64,000 bases of DNA from an uncultured SAR116 cluster alpha proteobacterium (GTDB taxonomy: Bacteria > Pseudomonadota > Alphaproteobacteria > Puniceispirillales > Puniceispirillaceae): NCBI GenBank assembly GCA_902622515.1, contig CACNQE010000001.1:186001-250000 (forward strand), read 5' to 3'. This document shows, one piece after another, positions 12,064 through 36,069 of this stretch; the first letter of the stretch is position 1, and each line of letters starts with the position of its first letter. Below the pieces are notes generated by a model, which saw only the letters and a program-made list of their open reading frames with translations, searched no databases and was not told the DNA's origin. The translations under genes and the position numbers were made by a program.

Positions 12064-13578
12064 ATGAATAATCATAATTCTCATCAAACGTTTGAGCCGT
12101 TCTTAGCTAACTATACCCAAGGCAAGAATCAAATATGTTTTCGTGTGATGTTAGCTGATACGCAAACAGCCGTTGCAGCCATGCTGAAACTTTCAAAGGA
12201 AGGTTCCTATTCCTGTCTTCTTGAGTCTGTAGAAGGAGGTAAAGTTAGAGGACGTTTTTCAGTTATTGCTATAGAACCAGATTTAATCTGGCGCTGTAAA
12301 AATAATTTGGTAGAGATTAATAGAAATCCCAGCGCAGATCCAAATGATTTTTTATCTGAAACCTCCCAAGACCCACTCGATGATTTGCGTTCAATTCTCA
12401 GTGAAGGTAAAATGGAAAATACGCTTCCTCTTGCACCAATGGCGGCGGGATTATTTGGCTATTTTGGATATGAGATGATACGCCATGCGGAGAAAATCCC
12501 AACTAATAACTCCGATGAATTATCTCACTATGATAGTATATTTATTAGACCATCTATTGTTGCGATTTTTGATAGGCTAGAAGACACAATAACACTAGCT
12601 ACGCAAATTAGATATGACGAAAGTAAGCCGGCAGAAGTTGTCTGGGAAAATGCGCAAAAGCGCATTAAATCCGCTGAAGCTAAATTAAATTCAGTGCTTG
12701 ATATAGAAACGCAACGAAAAGTATCAGAAAAAGAATTAATTCAATCAGCTAACTTGTCAGAAAAGCAATATAAAAATATAGTAAAAACTGCAAAAGAATA
12801 TATCAAAAATGGTGATATTTTTCAGGTGGTTTTGTCCCAAAGATTCTCTATTCCATTTTCGCTTTCACCAATGGCTCTTTACAGGAGTCTTCGAAGATTA
12901 AACCCCTCACCTTTTCTCTATTGTTTTCATTTAAAAAATTTAGGTATTGTAGGTTCAAGTCCGGAAATTTTGGTTAGACTTCGCAATGGAGAAGTTACAA
13001 TAAGACCCATTGCTGGCACCAGAAAACGAGGAGAAACAGCTATAGAGGATCAAGAAAATGCAGCTGAGCTTTTGGGGGATATAAAAGAAAGGGCTGAACA
13101 TTTGATGCTTTTGGACCTAGGCCGAAATGATGTTGGTAGAGTGAGCGCTTCAGGTACAGTTCAGGTAGTATCAAATTTTGAAGTCGAGTATTATTCCCAC
13201 GTTATGCATGTGGCATCCGAAGTTAGAGGCAAAATTCGTCCAGAGTTTGATGCCATTGACGCATTAATGGCTGGTTTTCCTGCAGGCACAGTATCAGGAG
13301 CGCCCAAAATCCGAGCTATGGAAATTATTGAAGAACTGGAGCCTGACAAGCGAGGTATTTATGCTGGTGCAATTGGTTATATTGGAGCAGCAGGAGAAAT
13401 GGACACTTGCATTGCTCTTCGCACTGCAATTATTGAAGATAACAAGATGCATATCCAAGCTGGGGCGGGTATTGTATATGATAGTGACCCAAAATCAGAG
13501 TTTGAGGAGTGTCAAAATAAAGCAAGCGCCCTTTTTCGCGCCGCAGAAGACGCTATAAAGCTTAACAAAGAAAATTAA
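12064..13578 (+). CDS. trpE: Anthranilate synthase component I
   Basis: Converts chorismate to anthranilate, the first tryptophan-specific step, together with a glutaminase subunit not seen in this window. Conserved chorismate-enzyme motifs include FQVVLSQRFS, GSSPEILVRL, IRPIAGTRKRG, LGRNDVGRVS and PAGTVSGAPKIRAMEII. I take the ATG at 12064 (MNNHNSHQ); an in-frame GTG at 12055 is possible. The length, 504 residues, is normal. No trp leader peptide or attenuator is visible. The stop overlaps the next ATG by one base. Confidence 0.95.
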   Translation: MNNHNSHQTFEPFLANYTQGKNQICFRVMLADTQTAVAAMLKLSKEGSYSCLLESVEGGKVRGRFSVIAIEPDLIWRCKNNLVEINRNPSADPNDFLSETSQDPLDDLRSILSEGKMENTLPLAPMAAGLFGYFGYEMIRHAEKIPTNNSDELSHYDSIFIRPSIVAIFDRLEDTITLATQIRYDESKPAEVVWENAQKRIKSAEAKLNSVLDIETQRKVSEKELIQSANLSEKQYKNIVKTAKEYIKNGDIFQVVLSQRFSIPFSLSPMALYRSLRRLNPSPFLYCFHLKNLGIVGSSPEILVRLRNGEVTIRPIAGTRKRGETAIEDQENAAELLGDIKERAEHLMLLDLGRNDVGRVSASGTVQVVSNFEVEYYSHVMHVASEVRGKIRPEFDAIDALMAGFPAGTVSGAPKIRAMEIIEELEPDKRGIYAGAIGYIGAAGEMDTCIALRTAIIEDNKMHIQAGAGIVYDSDPKSEFEECQNKASALFRAAEDAIKLNKEN

Positions 13579-14177
13579 TGACTCTTGCCTCACTTATAAG
13601 TTTTTCGATATTTGCACTAACGGCTGCGGTGACCCCAGGTCCAAATAATATAATGCTTGCTGCATCTGGAGCGAATTATGGATTTCGTCGAACTCTGCCA
13701 CATATTATCGGTATTTGCGTTGGGTTTGGTTTTTTAGTCATAGCTGGTGGTCTTGGTCTTGGAACCTTTCTCCAAAACTTTCCTCAATTCTTCTCTTTTG
13801 TAAAATTATTTGCTTTATTTTTTCTACTATATCTGGCTTGGAGAATTGGAACGGCATCCTCACCAGAAATTTCAAAAGATAGCAAACCAATTCGATTTCA
13901 TACCGCAGCCTTTTTTCAATGGATAAATCCAAAGGGCCTGACGGTTGTTATTAGCTCGATAGCTGCATATATGGAAACTGCTACCAGCATCTGGCAAGCT
14001 CTCCCATTGATGGTATTTATTTTTGTTCTAGTAACAGCAATAGGGACATGTTTGTGGGCATTACTTGGAACCTTAATATCTGAATTTTTAGCAAATAAAA
14101 AACATAGAGTAGCATTTAATATAACGATGGCCTTTTTGTTGCTGATGTCAATGCTACCTGCAATCTTATCACTATAA
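13578..14177 (+). CDS. LysE/RhtB family amino-acid exporter
   Basis: A 199-residue inner-membrane protein with about six hydrophobic segments. The N-terminal family signature is TAAVTPGPNNIMLAASGANYG. LysE/RhtB proteins export amino acids or related compounds; the substrate cannot be told. Its start overlaps the trpE stop by one base (TAATG), so the two are translationally coupled. That hints at, but does not prove, a role with aromatic amino acids. Confidence 0.88.
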   Translation: MTLASLISFSIFALTAAVTPGPNNIMLAASGANYGFRRTLPHIIGICVGFGFLVIAGGLGLGTFLQNFPQFFSFVKLFALFFLLYLAWRIGTASSPEISKDSKPIRFHTAAFFQWINPKGLTVVISSIAAYMETATSIWQALPLMVFIFVLVTAIGTCLWALLGTLISEFLANKKHRVAFNITMAFLLLMSMLPAILSL

Positions 14178-14270
14178 AACAATTAATATGCTGTCACAAA
14201 TAACTAAAGGGCATGCTAAAAATGTTTAAGTTGATTAAAATAACAACTACTAATATATACCTGTGAAAAA

Positions 14271-14347
<77 letters not shown>

Positions 14348-14397
14348 ACACGATGTGTTATATATACAACATTAGATAATTCCAAGTATAATTATCA

Positions 14398-14877
14398 TTA
14401 ATTCGACAAATTTTTAACACTTAAAATCGCTCCAGGTGAGATATTCCGCAATCGTGATTGACCTGCTTTAATTTCCAAAACAAATTTTGCAGGAAATTTA
14501 GAGGAGATTAGACTAGTTGAACCTTTCTGTGCACTTTCCTCTATATGCACAACCTGATACTCAGAATTTATGAATAAAATATCAAGATTGATGAGTGTAT
14601 TTTTCATCCAAAATTGCCTTAGAGAGTCTGTATCCCAGATGAATAACATTCCCTCATCATCATCTAACTCTTCTCTAAACATTAGCCCTATGCTTTTTTC
14701 TTTCTCAGAACGAGCATATTCAACATTTAAATGTTCTAAATGTCCTTCAACAGTAATAATTGTAATCTGATTTTTATTAAGACTAGAGGCAAAGGAGGTG
14801 AAACTACCGTAATAAATGAATATTCCTAAAAAAACTAAAAAAAATTTGAACTTTAATTTCCTATTTTGATAATTCAA
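14398..14877 (-). CDS. DUF192 family exported protein
   Basis: A 159-residue protein with a hydrophobic signal or anchor segment (about residues 9-31, FKFFLVFLGIFIYYGSFTSFA). The DUF192 domain follows: ARSEKEKSIGLMFREELDDD, FIWDTDSLRQFWMKNTLINL, DILFINSEYQVVHIEE. The family is widespread and its biochemical role is unknown. The start is a TTG at 14875-14877, 6 bases after GAGG. Confidence 0.88.
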   Translation of the reverse strand: MNYQNRKLKFKFFLVFLGIFIYYGSFTSFASSLNKNQITIITVEGHLEHLNVEYARSEKEKSIGLMFREELDDDEGMLFIWDTDSLRQFWMKNTLINLDILFINSEYQVVHIEESAQKGSTSLISSKFPAKFVLEIKAGQSRLRNISPGAILSVKNLSN

Positions 14878-14931
14878 ACATTACCTCTTCAATTAATTTT
14901 CAAAAATAACTTTTATATTCTTGCATATTAG

Positions 14932-15978
14932 TTATCCGTCATAAAGTCTAGAGATCCATCTATCAGGAATATTTTTTCCTAATCTATGTGGAAAATTTAA
15001 ACTCTGAAGTATAGCACGTGACTCAGCAACACATTTAGTTTTGTAAGGACTCTTACCTATCATCAAACCCCAAACGCCAGCCCAGGCGCGTGCCGTTGTA
15101 AAAGGATTGTAGCCACCGCCACCAAGAACAAGTATAGGAATATTAAGCTGAAGAAATGCAGAAACCGTATTCCAATAACCTTGATTAGAATAACATAATC
15201 CAGATTGGGGATCCTCTTCAAGACCATCAGACCCTGCTTGCAACACAATAAAATCAGGATTAAATGCTAATAAAAGAGGAAGGACTTGATTGGTTATCAC
15301 TTCATTTAAGTCCTTATCATTTGAACCTCTTGGCAGAGGATAATTGTGGGCATTTCCGCCACCGACATCATCTTTTTTACCTGTTCGAGGCCATCTATCT
15401 GCCTCGTGCACAGAAAACAAAATAATTCTTTCTAAATGACTAAAATTATCTTGAACACCGTCTGGATGATGAGCGTCTATATCAACATATGCTATCTTTT
15501 TTGACGTGTTATGATACAAGGTTGTCAGCGCAATTGCAGGGTCATTTACAAAACAAAATCCATTTGCTGAATCAGGGAATCCATGATGTGTGCCCCCTGA
15601 GGGATTAAATACTCTAGAGTGCTTTCCGGATATTAAATAATATGCACCTTGCAAACTTGCCTTCGCAGCAGTGGCTGGTCTTCTGTAAATCTCTTGGTAA
15701 ATAGGATTTGAATGGTTACCAATATTATGCCTTTTTGAGCGTATTTCATCTAATACCTGTGTTTTCTCAGCGTCAATAAGCGCCTGAATATATTCAGGTG
15801 TATGAAAGCACTCTAGCTCTTTTGCTGTTGCAGGTGGTACCATTTCAAATTGACTATCATTCAACCATCCTTGAGCTCTACAAATATCAATTACTGGCCA
15901 AACCCTAGGTATGTTAAGTGGATGTCCAGGCCCATAACCGGAACCTCTAAATATGTCACTTCCAAGGAAAATTGCCAC
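14932..15978 (-). CDS. Histone deacetylase/AcuC-like zinc hydrolase
   Basis: A 348-residue member of the arginase/deacetylase superfamily, which cleaves acetyl-lysine, acetylpolyamines or related amides. The zinc-site motif YVDIDAHHPDGVQDNF carries Asp and His ligands. GGTHHGFPDSANGFCFVND carries the catalytic His pair. QAGSDGLEEDPQSGL supplies a further Asp, and LVLGGGGYN is conserved. The start is a GTG at 15976-15978, 7 bases after AGG. The natural substrate is not predictable. It lies 48 bp past the last antiporter gene on the same strand. Confidence 0.88.
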   Translation of the reverse strand: MAIFLGSDIFRGSGYGPGHPLNIPRVWPVIDICRAQGWLNDSQFEMVPPATAKELECFHTPEYIQALIDAEKTQVLDEIRSKRHNIGNHSNPIYQEIYRRPATAAKASLQGAYYLISGKHSRVFNPSGGTHHGFPDSANGFCFVNDPAIALTTLYHNTSKKIAYVDIDAHHPDGVQDNFSHLERIILFSVHEADRWPRTGKKDDVGGGNAHNYPLPRGSNDKDLNEVITNQVLPLLLAFNPDFIVLQAGSDGLEEDPQSGLCYSNQGYWNTVSAFLQLNIPILVLGGGGYNPFTTARAWAGVWGLMIGKSPYKTKCVAESRAILQSLNFPHRLGKNIPDRWISRLYDG

Positions 15979-16026
15979 TAAAAAACCTGCTATAAAAGAT
16001 ATTTCATTTTCTAAGATATATTAACA

Positions 16027-17709
16027 TCAAAAAATATTTGTAATTAACAAAACACACATTAATAGTGTAATCAAAGCGATTGCTGCGGGGCCTGGCGTGA
16101 CAGGGCCTGTTACTGGATGCTGATAAATATAAGAAATTCGTGAAATAAACAGCTTAGTAAATTTAATCAAAAATGCGTTTGCACCCACCCCAATCTTATT
16201 TGCTATTAATAAAAAAGGTTTTCCAATGCGTGGAGCGAGTTTTCTATAAAACCAGTCCGAATTAAGCACTGTTGACGAAATCTCTGGTGGATAAAACCCA
16301 AATCGCATTAGAAAGGTGAAGGCTAACATAGCGAAAATCACCAATTGAAATTGACCAACAATATGGCTTGCATCATATGGCTGATAATTAAGTTCATATG
16401 GAAGAATTTGATAAAACTGTGTTGGCATAACTCCAATACCAATACAAAAAACACTAGCAATTGCCATTGCTATGATCATGTTAAAAGGTGCTTCTTTTGG
16501 ACGCAACCCACTGTCATGACTAAAGAAAGTAAAATATGGAATTTTTATTCCAGAGTGATGTAATACTCCTGCTGAGGCTGCCAGCAAAACTAAATAAACA
16601 TAAATGAGTCCCTCGTATCCAACAGCTTTCATTATCACTGCCTTAGCTGTGAATCCACTGAACAATGGGAAGGCTGAGATAGACATGGCGCCAATGATAC
16701 AGAATATCATTGTTAATGGCATGGATTTATACAAACCGCCAAGTTCAGTTGCTTTAGCTGTTCCAACTCTATACATCACAGAACCAATTGACATGAATAG
16801 AAGTGCTTTATAAAGAATATGTGCAAATGCATGAGCAACGGCTCCATTTAGTGCCAATTCTGTTCCTATACCAATCGCTACTATCATGAAACCGAGCTGA
16901 TTATTTAGACTGTATGCTAATACCCGTCTGAGATCATTTTCGATTACAGCAAAAAAGACTGGAAAAGCTGTCATCACGGCACCAATCCAAATTAGATACT
17001 CTGTACCTGCGAATCCTCTTGCAAATGCGTAAATAGCTAATTTCGTGGTAAATGAAGATAACATCACCGTTCCAATTATTGTTGCCTCCGGATAGGCGTC
17101 TTGTAACCAACCATTCAAAAAAGGGAATGCAGCCTTAATTCCAAATGCAAGAAAAATAAGCCAAGTTCCTGTGCTACCGAGCTCCATAGCGCCAAAAGCG
17201 ATTGTTCCGCTTTCTTTCCAGTATAAGCAAGCACCAGCTAATAACATTACCCCTGAAGCTACCTGGACAAGCAAATACCTCATTGCTGCATTATTGGCAC
17301 GCTGTGTTCCACTTGCTAATATTAAAAATACCGATGTTATGGCAGTTGCTTCCCACCATATAAATAGTGTTATTAAATCACCTGCGTGCAATGCGGCAAT
17401 TGCAGCACCTGCATATGCAAGACCAGCAGTATGTTCCATTGGTCTGCGTTCGTGCCAGCCATAAATCACATTCAAAGTAGCTGCAATATGAAAAATAATT
17501 CCAAATGGAAGTGTTAAATTATCAGCGTTATGCAGAATTAATTCTTGTCCAAAAACAAAAATTATCCAATGTACACCCTCACCGGCGAAAAGACTAACAG
17601 CAGAAAAACCTATAGCGATAAGCATAAATACTTGCCGTATATGATGAGGCAAATACGGGACAAAAGCAGCAGCTACTATCATTAATAATCCAGGAGTAAT
17701 ATTAGTCAT
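16027..17709 (-). CDS. Third large antiporter-like subunit (NuoL/M/N family) of Mrp operon
   Basis: A 560-residue polytopic membrane protein of the proton-conducting transporter family. A core signature is AFGIKAAFPFLNGWLQDAYPEA, with the family lysine, and later NGAVAHAFAHILYKALLFMS. It is the last gene of the operon and overlaps the preceding small gene by 8 bp. It may take the place of the N-terminal half of MrpA, whose C-terminal half is encoded separately at 21702-22295. Which of the three large subunits corresponds to MrpA or MrpD is not certain. Confidence 0.85.
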   Translation of the reverse strand: MTNITPGLLMIVAAAFVPYLPHHIRQVFMLIAIGFSAVSLFAGEGVHWIIFVFGQELILHNADNLTLPFGIIFHIAATLNVIYGWHERRPMEHTAGLAYAGAAIAALHAGDLITLFIWWEATAITSVFLILASGTQRANNAAMRYLLVQVASGVMLLAGACLYWKESGTIAFGAMELGSTGTWLIFLAFGIKAAFPFLNGWLQDAYPEATIIGTVMLSSFTTKLAIYAFARGFAGTEYLIWIGAVMTAFPVFFAVIENDLRRVLAYSLNNQLGFMIVAIGIGTELALNGAVAHAFAHILYKALLFMSIGSVMYRVGTAKATELGGLYKSMPLTMIFCIIGAMSISAFPLFSGFTAKAVIMKAVGYEGLIYVYLVLLAASAGVLHHSGIKIPYFTFFSHDSGLRPKEAPFNMIIAMAIASVFCIGIGVMPTQFYQILPYELNYQPYDASHIVGQFQLVIFAMLAFTFLMRFGFYPPEISSTVLNSDWFYRKLAPRIGKPFLLIANKIGVGANAFLIKFTKLFISRISYIYQHPVTGPVTPGPAAIALITLLMCVLLITNIF

Positions 17710-30389: not shown

Positions 30390-30591
30390 TTAAATTACCA
30401 TGGCGGCCAGCGAGCGTGTCAATATGACTCAAATTTCTAGACAACTCGGACACGCGAATATCAGAATCACAGAAAAGTATTACGCTTATCACCATCCTGA
30501 CCATATGGGTCAAGCAAGCGATGCAAGAATGTTCGAATACCTCTGTGCCCTGTTCGGGGTTTGCTTGGCCCATCAGGAATCTAACTTCTAA
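30390..30591 (+). pseudogene. Integrase 3' remnant 1 (tyrosine recombinase)
   Basis: The first 40 residues after the in-frame ATG at 30400 (AASERVNMTQISRQLGHANI, RITEKYYAYHHP, MGQASD) match the end of a tyrosine recombinase. They include the LGH histidine and the tyrosine near the end. The segment is closely similar to the second remnant at 32715-33008. The N-terminal domain and the arginine boxes are absent, and the frame diverges after MGQASD. It is not functional. Confidence 0.75.
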
Positions 30592-30629
30592 ATTTCATAT
30601 TTAATCTAAAAATAACTCTTCAAAAAAAA

Positions 30630-31967
30630 TTAAAGCCAAATTTTATATAAACCAATAGTTTCTTCCCGACCTCTTATTTTATAATTAGAGATATATTCAG
30701 AACGGAGCGTAAAATTAATATTATCTCTAAGTTCTGAGCTTATTAAAAAGTTCGTATCGAATTCTTTACACGCACTGCAAATTCTACTTGCAACATTTAC
30801 TGTATCTCCAAGCACCGCAAATTCTATTCTGTGTTTACTACCCATATTTCCAACTACGCAACGACCAAAATGAATTCCTATACGATGCTCTATTTCGAAT
30901 TTGCCGTTTTTAGTGCGCTCTTGATTCCACTTTTCTAATGCCTCATTCATTGCGACTGCGCAGTCAAAAGCGTTCTGCGAGTCATTTCCATAAGATTTTG
31001 GTGTGCCAAAGTTAGCCATTACGGCATCACCGATAAATTTATCAACCGTACCACTATGGTAAAATATGTTATCTACCATAATACTTTGATATTCCGACAA
31101 TAAAACCAAGGTATCTTTTGGGTCCATTTTTTCAGATAACTGAGTAAAGTTTACAATATCCGTAAACATTACTGCCACATCCATTTCTTTGGTCGAGGAT
31201 GCATTGAAATTGTCGCCACTATTTCTGATTTCTTCCTTTATGTCTGGCGAAAAATAACGACTTAAATTTCTATTTTCTGTTTCAGCACTAATTGTCGAGT
31301 GTATTACCCAACGATTAAAATGAATTAAGGTGGAGATTACGAATAAGAAAAATATTGATGTCATAAACCCATCAGTTAATGCCCATTTGTTTACAGCATA
31401 ACCATTGGAAATAATTATATCCCAGTCATCCGCAATAAATACCTTCTCATAGGAGGATAGAGTCACAAATTCCTTAAGCGGTCTGAAGCAAGAAAGAGCT
31501 AGCCACAGGTAGTTTGCCCATAGTCGGGAGAAAAATAAACAAAACAGTGCGGTTAATGGAAACGACATAAAGATATAATCCATCATCCTTCCCGTTCCAA
31601 CTATTTCAACACTCTGTAATCTATAACCCTCCAATTCATGTCCAAGCATGAATAAATTAAAAAATAAATGAAATGATATTATAGAAACAAACAAATAAAC
31701 TGCATATTTTTGTGGTTTAAGTGTAAGAAATATTATCAAAAAAATTAATATAGCAACTGCTGGCACTCCTCGAACCAGAAAATTATCTATAAAAAATTGC
31801 TTTGGCTGCTCAATCCATTCAAGAAATCCGAGTGTTCCAAAAGAAAAGATAGCAAGCAAACCTAAAACTTTTAGAAATCTAATTTCTAATCTATTTCCAG
31901 ACAACACAGTCAGCTCCCGATGCAATATTTTAAAGATGTGTTTTTTTATTAGCGCTATACACACCAT
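30630..31967 (-). CDS. Class III adenylate/guanylate cyclase with membrane N-terminus
   Basis: About 445 residues. The first half has about six membrane helices; the last 190 residues form a class III nucleotidyl cyclase domain. Metal-binding aspartates are in VMFTDIVNFTQLSEK and FIGDAVMANFG. The lysine in VDKFIGD and the GDTVNVASRI Asn/Arg residues fit an active cyclase, most likely making cAMP. I choose the ATG at 31967 (GGTGGAG upstream); a TTG start at 32012 would add 15 residues. It lies between the two integrase remnants, so it may be island cargo. Confidence 0.85.
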   Translation of the reverse strand: MVCIALIKKHIFKILHRELTVLSGNRLEIRFLKVLGLLAIFSFGTLGFLEWIEQPKQFFIDNFLVRGVPAVAILIFLIIFLTLKPQKYAVYLFVSIISFHLFFNLFMLGHELEGYRLQSVEIVGTGRMMDYIFMSFPLTALFCLFFSRLWANYLWLALSCFRPLKEFVTLSSYEKVFIADDWDIIISNGYAVNKWALTDGFMTSIFFLFVISTLIHFNRWVIHSTISAETENRNLSRYFSPDIKEEIRNSGDNFNASSTKEMDVAVMFTDIVNFTQLSEKMDPKDTLVLLSEYQSIMVDNIFYHSGTVDKFIGDAVMANFGTPKSYGNDSQNAFDCAVAMNEALEKWNQERTKNGKFEIEHRIGIHFGRCVVGNMGSKHRIEFAVLGDTVNVASRICSACKEFDTNFLISSELRDNINFTLRSEYISNYKIRGREETIGLYKIWL

Positions 31968-32061
31968 TTCTCCACCATAACCAACAATATCGATAATCAA
32001 AAAATTGTTCAAATTTTTAGTATAACTAATAATCGTCGTTATGACGACCTTCTCTTTACTT

Positions 32062-32087
32062 GGACGGTCTTTTTACCGTCCTTTTTT
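32062..32087 (+). terminator. Terminator hairpin at island interior
   Basis: Stem GGACGGT (32062-32068) pairs with ACCGTCC (32075-32081) around a 6-nt loop, followed by six T. It is a clear plus-strand terminator, but no plus-strand gene lies just upstream, so its gene has been lost or is untranslated. Confidence 0.8.
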
Positions 32088-32121
32088 AATCGCAGGCTAT
32101 TCGCCTAAAGAAGAGGCCACC

Positions 32122-32187
32122 ATGCACGCCATCATAAATATCGCAGTTGTATCCGTGCTATCCTTGGTTGATATTGTCGGGCATTAA
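32122..32187 (+). CDS. Possible 21-aa hydrophobic peptide
   Basis: An ATG after AAGAAGAGG (6-base spacing) opens a 21-codon frame, MHAIINIAVVSVLSLVDIVG plus a final His. It is hydrophobic. It could be a small membrane peptide, a leader for the next gene (37 bp downstream) or chance. Confidence 0.4.
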   Translation: MHAIINIAVVSVLSLVDIVGH

Positions 32188-32223
32188 ATTATTACTTAGT
32201 AAAACTACAAAAGGAGATTTGGG

Positions 32224-32586
32224 ATGATTTTGTCAACAATAATGGTAATTGGGTCAATTTTTTTAATGTTGTTTGGGATTATTATAGGAGGAGATATAGG
32301 GCTTTCATTCAACCTTCCAGCGGCCGTTTTAGTTATCGGGCTAGCCTCTTTATCTACAATTGGAGCTAAAGCTGTGAAAACAGACCTAGATTCTCTTCAA
32401 TATTTTGGCGAGTCCGCAGCTAGAGCAGGTTGGATTGCATTTTTTATAGGATTGGTAATGACTAGTGGTTTATTGCAGAACGAAGCAAATTTAATTGAGT
32501 TTTTGCCTAGAGCAATCTCGATAATATTTTTAGGACCTCTTTACGGCTATGTATTAACCTTTTCTAACAAAAATTTTGTCACCTAG
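32224..32586 (+). CDS. Small membrane protein resembling the MotA N-terminal region
   Basis: 120 residues with about four hydrophobic segments. The motif IIIGGDIGLSFNLPAAVLVIG resembles the first part of MotA, but the cytoplasmic loop and the power-stroke region are missing. No other motility genes are near, so it is not a stator. The ribosome-binding site AAGGAG, 8 bases before the ATG, is strong. It lies between the integrase remnants and may be island cargo. Confidence 0.7.
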   Translation: MILSTIMVIGSIFLMLFGIIIGGDIGLSFNLPAAVLVIGLASLSTIGAKAVKTDLDSLQYFGESAARAGWIAFFIGLVMTSGLLQNEANLIEFLPRAISIIFLGPLYGYVLTFSNKNFVT

Positions 32587-32714
32587 ATAGAATCAATCGA
32601 CGAGGGACTAAAGCGACTGAATCGGATGTAAAGTTACGCACCTTATCCGATAACAATCCAGCTATAGAATAAACGAACTGTCACCAAATTTATGCAGTCA
32701 ATTTAAAAGAATAA

Positions 32715-33008
32715 TTTTCTAAACCCGTTTTGCACCATGAGTGGGATAACGTCAGAAAGAAAATCAACCTAAAGTTTCTATGGTGGCATGACCTTCGAAG
32801 AACCTGGCCAACAATGGCGGCAAGAGAGCGTGTCGATATGATTCAAATTTCCCGACAACTTGGTCACGAGAATATGAGAATCACAGAAGAGCATTACGCT
32901 CATTACCACCCTGACTACATGGGTCAGGCAAGCGACCATTCTAGTCGGATGTTACAAAATTTCCTAGAACGGGAATTAATGCCTAAAAAAGGAGGCAAAA
33001 CGATCTAA
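32715..33008 (+). pseudogene. Integrase 3' remnant 2 (tyrosine recombinase)
   Basis: The frame reads SKPVLHHEWDNVRKK, then the catalytic box WHDLRRTWPTMAARERV, LGHENMRITEEHYAHYHP with the nucleophile tyrosine, and ends MPKKGGKTI at a stop. Only the C-terminal third of the enzyme is left; an in-frame stop at 32712-32714 closes it upstream. It ends 10 bp before the left tRNA repeat, which is where an integrase gene normally ends. Confidence 0.85.
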
Positions 33009-33018
33009 ACCATTGAAT

Positions 33019-33068
33019 TTTAGTGGCGGGAGTGACGGGACTCGAACCCGCGGCCTCTGGCGTGACAG
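33019..33068. repeat. Left att-type repeat: copy of the tRNA-Asp 3' half
   Basis: 50 bp identical to 35988-36037, running from just past the tRNA CCA end to the anticodon loop. The remainder of a tRNA is absent, so it is not a tRNA gene. It is the kind of core duplicated when an element integrates at a tRNA 3' end. Confidence 0.9.
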
Positions 33069-33084
33069 TCTAGCATTTGTACTG

Positions 33085-33104
33085 TATTTGAGGGTATTTG
33101 AGGG
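33085..33104. repeat. Tandem 10-bp repeat beside the left att core
   Basis: TATTTGAGGG occurs twice in tandem. Its place right beside the core suggests integrase arm-binding sites, but that is inference. Confidence 0.5.
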
Positions 33105-33174
33105 TAATATAGAGACATTTTTCTTTATTTTGATGGTAACTGTGTATACCTGAGTATCACCCAATGTAACCCAG

Positions 33175-33198
33175 AAAAGTAGCACAAAAGTAGCACAG
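33175..33198. repeat. Arm-type repeat pair AAAAGTAGCACA, left end
   Basis: AAAAGTAGCACA occurs at 33175 and 33186, overlapping. A third copy lies at 35901-35914, near the right repeat. Matching short repeats at both ends of a flanked segment fit integrase arm sites. Confidence 0.55.
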
Positions 33199-33292
33199 CA
33201 ATCTGCAATTTAGTGTCAACAGATTTTAGTAGGATCCCATCATTCATAGCTCGGATTACTTTAAATATATTTTTAAATTTTCACTATATTCA

Positions 33293-33321
33293 TTGAAAAA
33301 TGTTATGTTATAACATATCAT
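33293..33321 (+). promoter_or_regulatory. Promoter of the CobW-WD40 operon
   Basis: -35 TTGAAA (33293-33298), 17-base spacer and -10 TATCAT (33316-33321). Both hexamers are five of six to consensus. The Zur-type palindrome fills the spacer. Confidence 0.6.
33301..33320. promoter_or_regulatory. Zur-type operator
   Basis: A 20-bp inverted repeat, TGTTATGTTATAACATATCA, with one mismatched pair. The core TATGTTATAACATA is perfect. It fits the zinc uptake regulator motif of proteobacteria and overlaps the promoter spacer, so bound Zur would block RNA polymerase when zinc is plentiful. Confidence 0.7.
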
Positions 33322-33370
33322 ATTTTTTAAAATCTTCCTGCAAGAAAAAATTAAAATAGAAAGCCAAACA

Positions 33371-34342
33371 ATGTCTGTAAATAAACAAGTACCCGTCACT
33401 GTATTAACCGGTTTCCTAGGAGCTGGTAAGACTACTTTATTAAATCGAATTCTTACTGAACATCATGGAAAAAAATATGCTGTGGTTGTCAACGAATTTG
33501 GCGAGGAAGGCATCGATAACGATTTGGTAGTAGATGCTGACGAAGAAGTTTTTGAAATGAACAATGGATGCATCTGCTGCACTGTGCGAGGAGACTTAAT
33601 ACGTATTTTAAGTGGACTAATGAAACGAGCAGATAAATTAGATGCAATAATTGTGGAAACAACTGGATTAGCTGACCCTGCACCTGTAGCGCAAACTTTC
33701 TTTGTGGACGAAGATGTAGCACAACGTACAAAGCTTGATGCCATAGTTACCGTAGCAGATGCTGTGCATCTCGATGGCCAACTTGGTGAACATCATGAAG
33801 CAGAGGAACAGATAGCTTTTGCAGACGTTGTGTTACTAAATAAGACAGACCTGGTGGAAAAGAGCGGATTGTCAAAAGTTGAAGCGCGAATAAAAAAAAT
33901 AAATCCTTATACGAAGATTATTCAAACTTCTAGATGTGTAACTGAATTAGATGAAATTATTGGTCTTAATGCATTCAGCTTAGACCGAGTCCTTGAGGTA
34001 GAACCAGATTTCCTGGACTCTGATCATGATCACGAACATGATGATGATATCAAAAGTTTGTCTTTTATCTCTGAGACCCCTTTAGATCTTAAATTATTTC
34101 AAAAATGGTTTGGTGGACTTCTACAAACGCATGGCCAGGACATATTACGTTCTAAAGGTATTCTAAACTTTTCGGGCGAAGAAGAGCGTTACGTATTCCA
34201 AGGAGTTCATATGTTAATGGATGCGTCACCGATGGGTGCTTGGCCTAGCAATTTAAACCGTACATCTCGAATTGTATTCATTGGCAGAAACCTAGAAAAA
34301 ATGGATCTTGAAAAAGGATTTGAGGGATGCAAGAGAGTTTAA
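33371..34342 (+). CDS. CobW/COG0523 family GTPase, probable zinc metallochaperone
   Basis: A 323-residue G3E-family GTPase. Walker [13 protein letters not shown] is at residues 14-25. The metal-binding CxCC motif NNGCICC ends at residue 70. NKTD forms the G4 motif. A His/Asp-rich stretch ([11 protein letters not shown]) is near residue 218 and a CobW C-terminal domain follows. Proteins of this type deliver zinc to client enzymes under zinc starvation. The Zur-type operator supports zinc over cobalt or nitrile hydratase roles. The gene overlaps the next by 16 bp. Confidence 0.9.
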
Positions 34343-35385
34343 CTAATTCTTTTAATGATTCTAATTCAGGCCAGTTAGTTCGTGAAAAGCAAACCGAGTT
34401 AGAGCGAAGAGGAATTAATCATTGTTTTCATGCACCAGTAACATGTGCGACTGCAATCAACGAAGGAGTTGTTGCTGGTTTTGGGGATGGTACTATTGGA
34501 ATATTTAGACCTGGACTCTTTCCCGAAATAAAAAAGGCTCATAAAGGTGCAATTCTTTGCATTGCGGCAGATGATGATTTTGTTTTAACAGGTGGAGATG
34601 ACGGTTTGTTATTAAAAACCTCAACAGATGGCTATATTGAGGAAATTAAAAATTTTAATAAAAAGTGGATTGACTGTGTAGCGCATAAGAAAGATTTAAT
34701 AGCATGTTCGTCAGGAAAAAACGTTTATGTCTGGAAGTCAGACCAAAAAGAACCAGAAGTATTAGCGCATAGAAGCACAATTGGGGGTTTATCATTTGAC
34801 AAAACAAGTAAAAGACTTGCTGTAGCTCATTACGGTGGCGTCACCGTTTGGGAACTGATCAAGCAAAAATGGAAATCTTCAGTATTTGCCTGGAAAGGGT
34901 CTCATGGTGCCGTCTCATTTAGCCCAAATGGGAAGTATCTTGTCACAGCAATGCAAGAGAACGCCGTCCATGGCTGGCGAATTAGAGATAAAACTAATAT
35001 GGCCATGGCAGGATACCCTTCCAAGGTAAAGAGTTTTGCCTGGGTTGGAGAAACGCCATTCTTAGTCACCTCGGGCGCTGATGAGGCTATCTGTTGGCCG
35101 TTCGATGGTAAATGTGGACCCATGGAACGCTCACCCGTCTGTTTGGGGAAATATAATAATATTATGGTTACTCAAGTTCATTGTTTACCGCGCGAAAATG
35201 CTGTTTTTGCAGGCTACAGAGATGGTTCTGTTTTGTTAGCTGAAATAAATGAGAATAATAGTGGTATCTTGATAAGAGGCTCCACAGGAGCCCAGGTAAC
35301 TGCTTTATCAGTATCAAGCACAGGATCCCATATTTTTATTGGTGATGATGATGGTAATATCTTGTGGTCACCACTTTGGGCATGA
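34327..35385 (+). CDS. WD40-repeat beta-propeller protein
   Basis: 352 residues made of repeated beta-propeller blades: [60 protein letters not shown], and the last [20 protein letters not shown]. It has no signal peptide and no fused domain, so it is probably a cytoplasmic scaffold. AGGA lies 8 bases before the ATG, inside the end of the cobW-like gene. Its genetic linkage to a zinc metallochaperone suggests it binds that protein or a client. Confidence 0.88.
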
Positions 35386-35648
35386 TGTTAAAGAGAAAAT
35401 TTATGTTCAATCGAAAAAAAATAAATCCTGAGATAACTAGAAAAATAAAAATGCTTATTCAAGAACAATTTAATTTATCTGATGATACATTGATAAGCTT
35501 ATCCGAATTGAATTGTCATGAGCCTAACTGCCCACCAACAGAGACTGTTATAACGACAAGAGCATTAAAAGGTGAGAGTTGTATTTATAAGATTGCAAAA
35601 CCTATATCTGAGATCAAAATAGAAGATATAAAAAAGTTAAAAAATTAA
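35382..35648 (+). CDS. Small Cys-containing protein of the zinc operon
   Basis: Up to 88 residues. The ATG at 35382 overlaps the WD40 stop (ATGA); the ATG at 35403 (MFNRKKINPEITRK, AGAG upstream) is also likely. The core reads LSELNCHEPNCPPTETVITT, with two cysteines and His, and the tail is basic. The C-x4-C-P-P pattern could bind a metal. I do not recognise a named family. Confidence 0.75.
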   Translation: MMLKRKFMFNRKKINPEITRKIKMLIQEQFNLSDDTLISLSELNCHEPNCPPTETVITTRALKGESCIYKIAKPISEIKIEDIKKLKN

Positions 35649-35767
35649 TTATAAACTGATGGTCTACTATCAAAATGTTATATGCGTGTCATAGCAATAG
35701 TCAAAAATAACGAGTGACATAAAAAGCTTGGCATAGTTTTTAGCTGCCACTCATTCGCTTGAGTTCT

Positions 35768-35878
35768 TCAAAAATGCTGTTCTTTTGTTTCTTTTTTCTG
35801 ATTAATGTGTTTCCCAATAGATTTTTTCACTGCGGAACCAATGTAAAGTAAGGTTTTCTCTCGGATCGAAAATGACAT
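35768..35878 (-). CDS. Possible 36-aa basic peptide, maybe a frameshifted remnant
   Basis: The frame starts MSFSIREKTLLYIGSAVKKS and stops after KEQHF. In the next frame the chain could continue as SIFEELKRMSGS to a stop, so a one-base shift may have split a slightly longer protein. No family is recognised. Confidence 0.25.
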   Translation of the reverse strand: MSFSIREKTLLYIGSAVKKSIGKHINQKKETKEQHF

Positions 35879-35900
35879 AATATGTCAAAACTCACATTCA

Positions 35901-35914
35901 AAAAGTAGCACAAA
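35901..35914. repeat. Arm-type repeat, right end
   Basis: AAAAGTAGCACAAA, the same sequence as at 33175-33188. Confidence 0.5.
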
Positions 35915-35987
35915 CGTGTTTTTGGTAAAAAAAACACCTCGAACATTACTGAATGAGGTGTATTAAACTATTGATTTCATGATTTAA

Positions 35988-36037
35988 TTTAGTGGCGGGA
36001 GTGACGGGACTCGAACCCGCGGCCTCTGGCGTGACAG
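35988..36037. repeat. Right att-type repeat, inside tRNA-Asp
   Basis: 50 bp identical to 33019-33068. It covers the tRNA from the anticodon loop to just beyond CCA, the usual core used by tyrosine integrases. Confidence 0.9.
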
Positions 36038-36069
36038 GCCAGCGCTCTAACCAACTGAGCTACACCCCC
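35993..36069 (-). tRNA. tRNA-Asp(GTC)
   Basis: 77 nt with encoded CCA. The acceptor stem is GGGGGTG/CACTCCC with one G-T pair. The anticodon stem CTGGC/GCCAG encloses loop CTGTCAC, anticodon GTC. T-arm GCGGGTTCGAGTCCCGT. It is intact, so integration preserved the gene. Confidence 0.97.

Follow-up and report, generated by a model that had tools for sequence, protein, structure and literature searches.

Three kinds of element come closest to the units described here: cis-mobilizable elements (CIMEs), the ssrA islands of Dehalococcoides without integration modules, and tycheposons. CIMEs, for which micro-forms and tandem accretion have also been described, are flanked by att sites, lie in tandem at one gene and keep their cargo without recombination genes; their origin is in conjugative elements, and they move in cis once joined to a neighbouring element (PMC7563491). 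The Dehalococcoides islands are stacked, with displaced repeats of the target gene; 15 of them have metabolic cargo and no integration module, and a serine recombinase module is found in sister islands of the same array (PMC3146451). Tycheposons and marine satellites are described as tRNA-linked and as bringing nutrient-use cargo to streamlined marine bacteria, the tycheposons spanning 4-200 kb and being marked by a tyrosine recombinase (PMC10872708, PMC11389934, PMC10803314). Satellites are said to encode their own integrase, together with an excision factor (PMC10803314). In the additive flexible genomic islands of Methylophilaceae, tRNA 3'-end repeats split a variable region into pieces, and the available part of that source reports neither arm repeats nor phage attP ends (PMC10872708).

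Here we describe a tRNA-Asp locus in a 64,000-nucleotide stretch of SAR116 DNA (the window). SAR116 is an abundant bacterial group of the surface ocean. In our main reading, to which we give a probability of roughly 55%, the locus holds cargo units that are bracketed by attP sequence, were inserted site-specifically and owe their movement to integrases acting in trans; homologous exchange of unit ends would be a partner or a rival of this process. In this SAR116 genus, the 3' flank of tRNA-Asp would then serve as a docking site for small units whose only mobility feature is an attachment segment (core and arm repeats), without a functional integrase. Two such units lie side by side, a cyclase unit (type I, about 30535-33018) and a zinc unit (type II, 33019-36037).

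The zinc unit is inserted at tRNA-Asp(GTC) (35993..36069, minus strand). The 3' half of this gene is the right copy of a 50-bp repeat (35988-36037), and its displaced counterpart is the left copy (33019..33068, plus strand), behind which stand the element bases GTCTAGCATTT, also present in a second species, G009. The repeat extends from the 3' end of the gene to the anticodon loop and has no mismatch; a longer form covers 56 nt at 96%, and the chance expectation for a perfect pair is zero copies. AAAAGTAGCACA has three mismatch-free copies in the 64-kb window, all between the two cores. Two of them (33175 and 33186) form the left arm-type repeats, AAAGTAGCACA twice in tandem with an 11-bp period (33175..33197, plus strand), and the third is the right arm-type repeat (35901..35912, plus strand), which is single here and double in G009 and G004. 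The original prediction of a segment with perfect tRNA-Asp repeats, short repeats at both ends, and a CobW GTPase, a WD40 protein and a small Cys protein inside was thus accurate. Downstream of tRNA-Asp, the right end of the unit also brings in a terminator-like hairpin (35934..35961, minus strand; T run at 35927-35933), which folds at -10.6 kcal/mol (z -3.5). We propose that type II units have a longer core, reaching to the anticodon loop, and 11-bp arms of the form AAA-NNNN-CACA, and that their insertion would restore both the tRNA and its terminator.

A search of 35649-35900 for an integrase relic found none, and the zinc unit lacks such a relic in two species, that of the window and G009. 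Its cores and arms also differ from those of the integrase-stub (type I) units, so that we regard it as a distinct type of element. Between the Cys protein gene and the right arm, the minus strand (35700-35890) holds broken short frames that resemble a small degenerate gene and are not integrase-like. A perfect palindrome, TGACATAATATGTCA, lies at 35873-35887, just inside the right arm; it is kept in G009 and has one change in G008.

The cargo consists of three genes, all on the plus strand. The first encodes a CobW/COG0523-type GTPase (33371..34342; PF02492 and PF07683) and the second a WD40-repeat protein confirmed by family search (34327..35385). The third encodes an 81-aa Cys protein (35403..35648) that matches no Pfam or NCBIfam family and has a homologue behind the WD40 gene in the other SAR116 operons examined. 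Upstream of the operon is a predicted Zur-like palindrome with a ATGTTATAACAT core (33302..33321, plus strand), overlapping a promoter-like site at 33293-33321; promoter-like sites in general are no commoner in this DNA than in shuffled sequence. The perfect 12-mer of the palindrome is also found upstream of cobW in G009, G008, G032 and G024 and is absent within 260 bp upstream of cobW at the three family-f4 loci examined (G027, G039, G030); one further contig ends within this region. In COG0523 subfamily 5, COG0523 genes adjoin WD40 genes, several of them behind predicted Zur sites (PMC2770081). With a COG0523 gene, a WD40 neighbour and a Zur-like site upstream, the present operon would belong to this subfamily and is itself ordinary; only its location within a mobile unit is noteworthy. 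The unit would supply a Zur-repressible GTPase-WD40 operon, which may help its host under zinc scarcity. Identity of cobW across families of the order is 81-84%, a level for which vertical descent suffices, and we claim no transfer beyond the genus.

Relatives of the window genome point to site-specific insertion. In 12 genomes of the family (G003, G007 and ten more), tRNA-Asp has a single copy of the core and the site is empty for the zinc unit. In one of these, G003, an integrase remnant directly adjoins tRNA-Asp, the arrangement expected prior to entry of the zinc unit. On a 3.3-kb contig of G009, the zinc unit recurs with its displaced core and the element bases behind it, next to a different left neighbour. 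No relative was found to carry the operon directly beside tRNA-Asp without the left repeat. In G008, the operon (83% DNA identity) is on a separate contig near nuoA, without a recognisable repeat, and a relic of a type II right end is present in the tRNA-Asp array; the two may be parts of one older layer. The zinc unit thus has a regenerated tRNA gene, a displaced 3' fragment and empty sites in relatives, as does a tRNA-targeted island, and site-specific stacking at tRNA-Asp is well supported, with the zinc operon as cargo as originally predicted. The functional integrase of such an island is absent from both units of the window: the zinc unit has none, and the cyclase unit has only a C-terminal stub.

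The comparison with G009 raises the question of an assembly or contamination artefact in these single-cell or metagenome assemblies, since the G009 assembly has a contamination rating of 7% and a short zinc contig. We hold an artefact to be highly improbable: the window contig is 372 kb long, the G003 array lies within a 92-kb contig, and the same kinds of end module turn up at three tRNA genes in assemblies that are independent of one another.

The zinc cargo of the window and that of the sister genome G009 are 97-98% identical, with values mostly of 95-99%. Identity is only about 61% between the core and the left arms and 84% at the right arms, and the arms change in register at both ends, from AAAGTAGCACA (GTAG) in the window to AAATGAACACA (TGAA) in G009, where one repeat reads AAACGAACACA. 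Further variants of type II arms stand at right ends in G004 and G008; the G004 unit has other cargo, including a band-7 protein and a VWA protein. Synonymous differences between the window and G009 amount to 5.1 per 100 codons in the zinc cargo versus 12.1 in clpX, HU and a TPR gene. On this basis, exchange of the cargo most likely postdates the separation of the two species.

We looked for an integrase that could serve these arms. The GTAG pair had no further match across the order, the TGAA pair had none in the viral contigs, and neither search yielded an integrase; neither the zinc operon nor its displaced core was found in the viral contigs, a result that does not decide whether the unit is packaged by a helper phage, as satellites are. 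One viral contig, L143, which is unrelated, does contain the GTAG pair. There the pair adjoins an intact 384-aa integrase, close to what resembles a tRNA 3' end, and a further single copy of the arm lies on the other side. This supports a function of the sequences as arms, not kinship with the zinc unit.

The stacking was originally read as two or more elements with decayed integrases. Stacking is real, and there are two types of element. It had been overlooked that the second integrase remnant closes a unit of its own, the cyclase unit, which lies between remnants 1 and 2. Its cargo is an adenylate/guanylate cyclase with a membrane domain (30630..32012, minus strand) and a 120-aa membrane protein (32224..32586, plus strand). 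At its right end, remnant 2 is an integrase C-terminal stub (32709..33008, plus strand) that corresponds to residues about 255-342 of a 343-aa phage integrase and matches PF00589 at 5.6e-6, just under the Pfam cut-off. The stub contains the right arm-like repeat GGAGGCAAAACG (32991..33002, plus strand), in one copy here and two in G003 and G008. At the left end, the att site has been lost. No third copy of the tRNA-Asp 3' half, at up to three mismatches, lies further left in the window, so this end is marked solely by what remains of a phage endolysin C terminus (30507..30584, minus strand). Both integrase remnants match a phage integrase and are related as predicted, with 125 nt alignable at 85%. 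Remnant 1, taken earlier for integrase throughout, is integrase over about 125 bp: it is an older stub (30397..30521, plus strand), the one that adjoins tRNA-Asp in G003, fused in the window with the endolysin relic over a short shared word. From the start of the cyclase gene, a segment of about 105 bp (31845-31950) recurs at 80-82% in G000 (contig C20), G004, G005 and G009.

The same cyclase unit is found in G003 in an array at a different gene, tRNA-Ser(GCT). The 2.1-kb cargo is 97% identical to that of the window, and the range for five further genes compared between the two species is 77-91%. In both units the integrase stub starts at the same residue. This shared truncation point, at two tRNA genes in two species, indicates that the unit was probably already truncated when it moved. 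It bears directly on ordinary decay, in which complete prophages or islands with integrases inserted repeatedly, and phage genes and integrases were then deleted and useful cargo kept. Deletion is expected in small genomes. Decay would also account for stubs of unequal length between units, some with stops, and for arms and cores that are eroded or lost, as happened on the left side of the cyclase unit in the window. It does not predict a common truncation point, a zinc unit without an integrase relic in two species, or the narrow range of unit sizes (1.5-4.5 kb), and we consider it unlikely. The original view that the integrases simply decayed in place is not supported for either unit of the window. 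The two units are independent cases that support movement without a working integrase, their mobility being read from sequence comparison, and they suggest that small packets of genes still move between species, even between different tRNA genes.

Type I units form a family within the genus. We found 17 right-end modules in 7 of 10 genomes and left-end modules in several of the same arrays. Together they delimit eight more complete units, 1.5-4.5 kb in size, in tRNA-Asp, tRNA-Ser and tRNA-Glu arrays. Their cargo includes a redoxin, a DUF898 protein with an M48 peptidase, and a very long flagellin-like protein; the last, of 1097 aa, is carried by a unit at tRNA-Ser in G003 (contig C9; L246, about 12940-16240). 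Apart from the att-less left end of the window cyclase unit, these units show a regenerated tRNA and a displaced fragment. Each left core agrees with the tRNA gene at which it lies (Asp, Ser or Glu) as far as GGGATT; beyond this point the units have element sequence in common, a mark of site-specific insertion.

The ends of type I units point to a phage. Full-length 343-aa integrases of this family are present in three viral contigs, in which the order int, arms, core, arms, endolysin is that of the joined ends of a unit. Joined unit ends match the attP region of one of these contigs (L141), including the integrase and endolysin ends. In units of G003, G004 and the window, the relic on the left is the C terminus of this endolysin, at 65-73% identity. 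We propose that type I units derive from a phage attP region, in which 1-4 kb of bacterial genes would replace the phage genome. The right end would then comprise the 3' end of int, arms and core; core and arms would also make up the left end, to which several units add the 3' end of the endolysin gene. Units of G008 (L116 340-600; L108; L110) have a different left-end relic of about 59 aa that is not endolysin and had no match in the viral contigs.

Among 136 genomes of the order, the type I integrase occurs only as C-terminal pieces; the lack of any N-terminal piece is a further point against decay. No full-length close relative was found in these genomes, which were searched by query, or among 84,980 species represented by one genome each, a search that relies on two short peptide patterns. 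An intact partner of the family was not found at this tRNA-Asp locus either. Several genomes are incomplete, so that an intact integrase may have been missed.

The type I ends could also act as homology. Shared end modules (stub and left relic) would then allow RecA-type exchange to swap cargo between tRNA arrays, and recent moves would require no integrase. Stubs are 77-97% identical to each other, and G008 units in different arrays share 1.2 kb at the left end at 86% and differ further right. Identity between the window and G003, otherwise about 97%, declines to 86-88% within the stub, and there is a sharp loss within the left relic. These breaks imply that the cyclase unit has cargo and ends with separate histories. 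They are explained by exchange between shared ends, and simple movement of whole units, as in our main reading, does not predict them. Such exchange accounts poorly for cores that match the tRNA of each array to a fixed point, as in site-specific insertion. Empty sites contain nothing equivalent to the zinc unit and its displaced core, and the homology among type II ends is slight past about 100 bp. As a full account, homologous recombination therefore seems improbable to us; integrase action in trans and homologous end exchange may both contribute.

Integrases acting in trans would explain both the tRNA-matched cores and the matching arms. The left and right arms of one unit tend to share a variable word: 124 of 40,320 permutations do as well, in a test on eight ends, the phage included, with hand-picked segments and at least one shared word outside the arms. 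This pairing is support for the main reading, not proof; the concerted change of type II arms at the two ends of a unit points the same way, and two type I units with mismatched arms (G003_A and G008_C42) count against it. Under the main reading, we infer that units excise as circles, which an integrase encoded by a phage, or by some other element whose arms match, would recombine into tRNA 3' ends; cargo and ends would also be swapped as separate modules. A more specific version, in which integrase-free SAR116 minicircles of phage attP segment and bacterial cargo use the integrases of passing phages, with the variable bases of the arms as a key that is changed by swapping attP modules, is a tentative one that we would not favour at present.

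Compared with the known systems, the zinc unit resembles a CIME in keeping att sites and lacking recombination and transfer genes. An origin in integrative conjugative or mobilizable elements is not what the type I ends indicate: they match a phage attP region, and these units occupy three tRNA genes and have no intact family partner in the genomes searched. The Dehalococcoides islands have their recombinase in sister islands, whereas the tyrosine integrase family here survives as C-terminal stubs only. Units of 1.5-4.5 kb also contrast with tycheposons in size, and neither window unit has the tyrosine recombinase of a tycheposon or the integrase and excision factor of a satellite. Type I units are thus set apart by phage-attP origin, small size, several tRNA targets and no intact family integrase. 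If attP-tagged packets do move without an integrase of their own, gene traffic between streamlined marine species would be wider than counts of recognisable elements suggest, because the usual searches begin from an integrase gene. Arm repeats would allow the pairing of integrases and units to be studied from sequence; the cyclase unit, known from two tRNA genes, lends itself to such a test.

The window genome also has a different, intact element at another tRNA 3' end (contig C23; L118 1-1384), with a terminator-like hairpin, two tandem 11-bp arms, ATGGTACGAAA, and an intact 397-aa tyrosine integrase. Across the family, tRNA-Asp and nuoA are separated by anything between about 0.2 and 9 kb (L041, L043, L045, L046, L049), which marks this interval as a general hotspot of variation.
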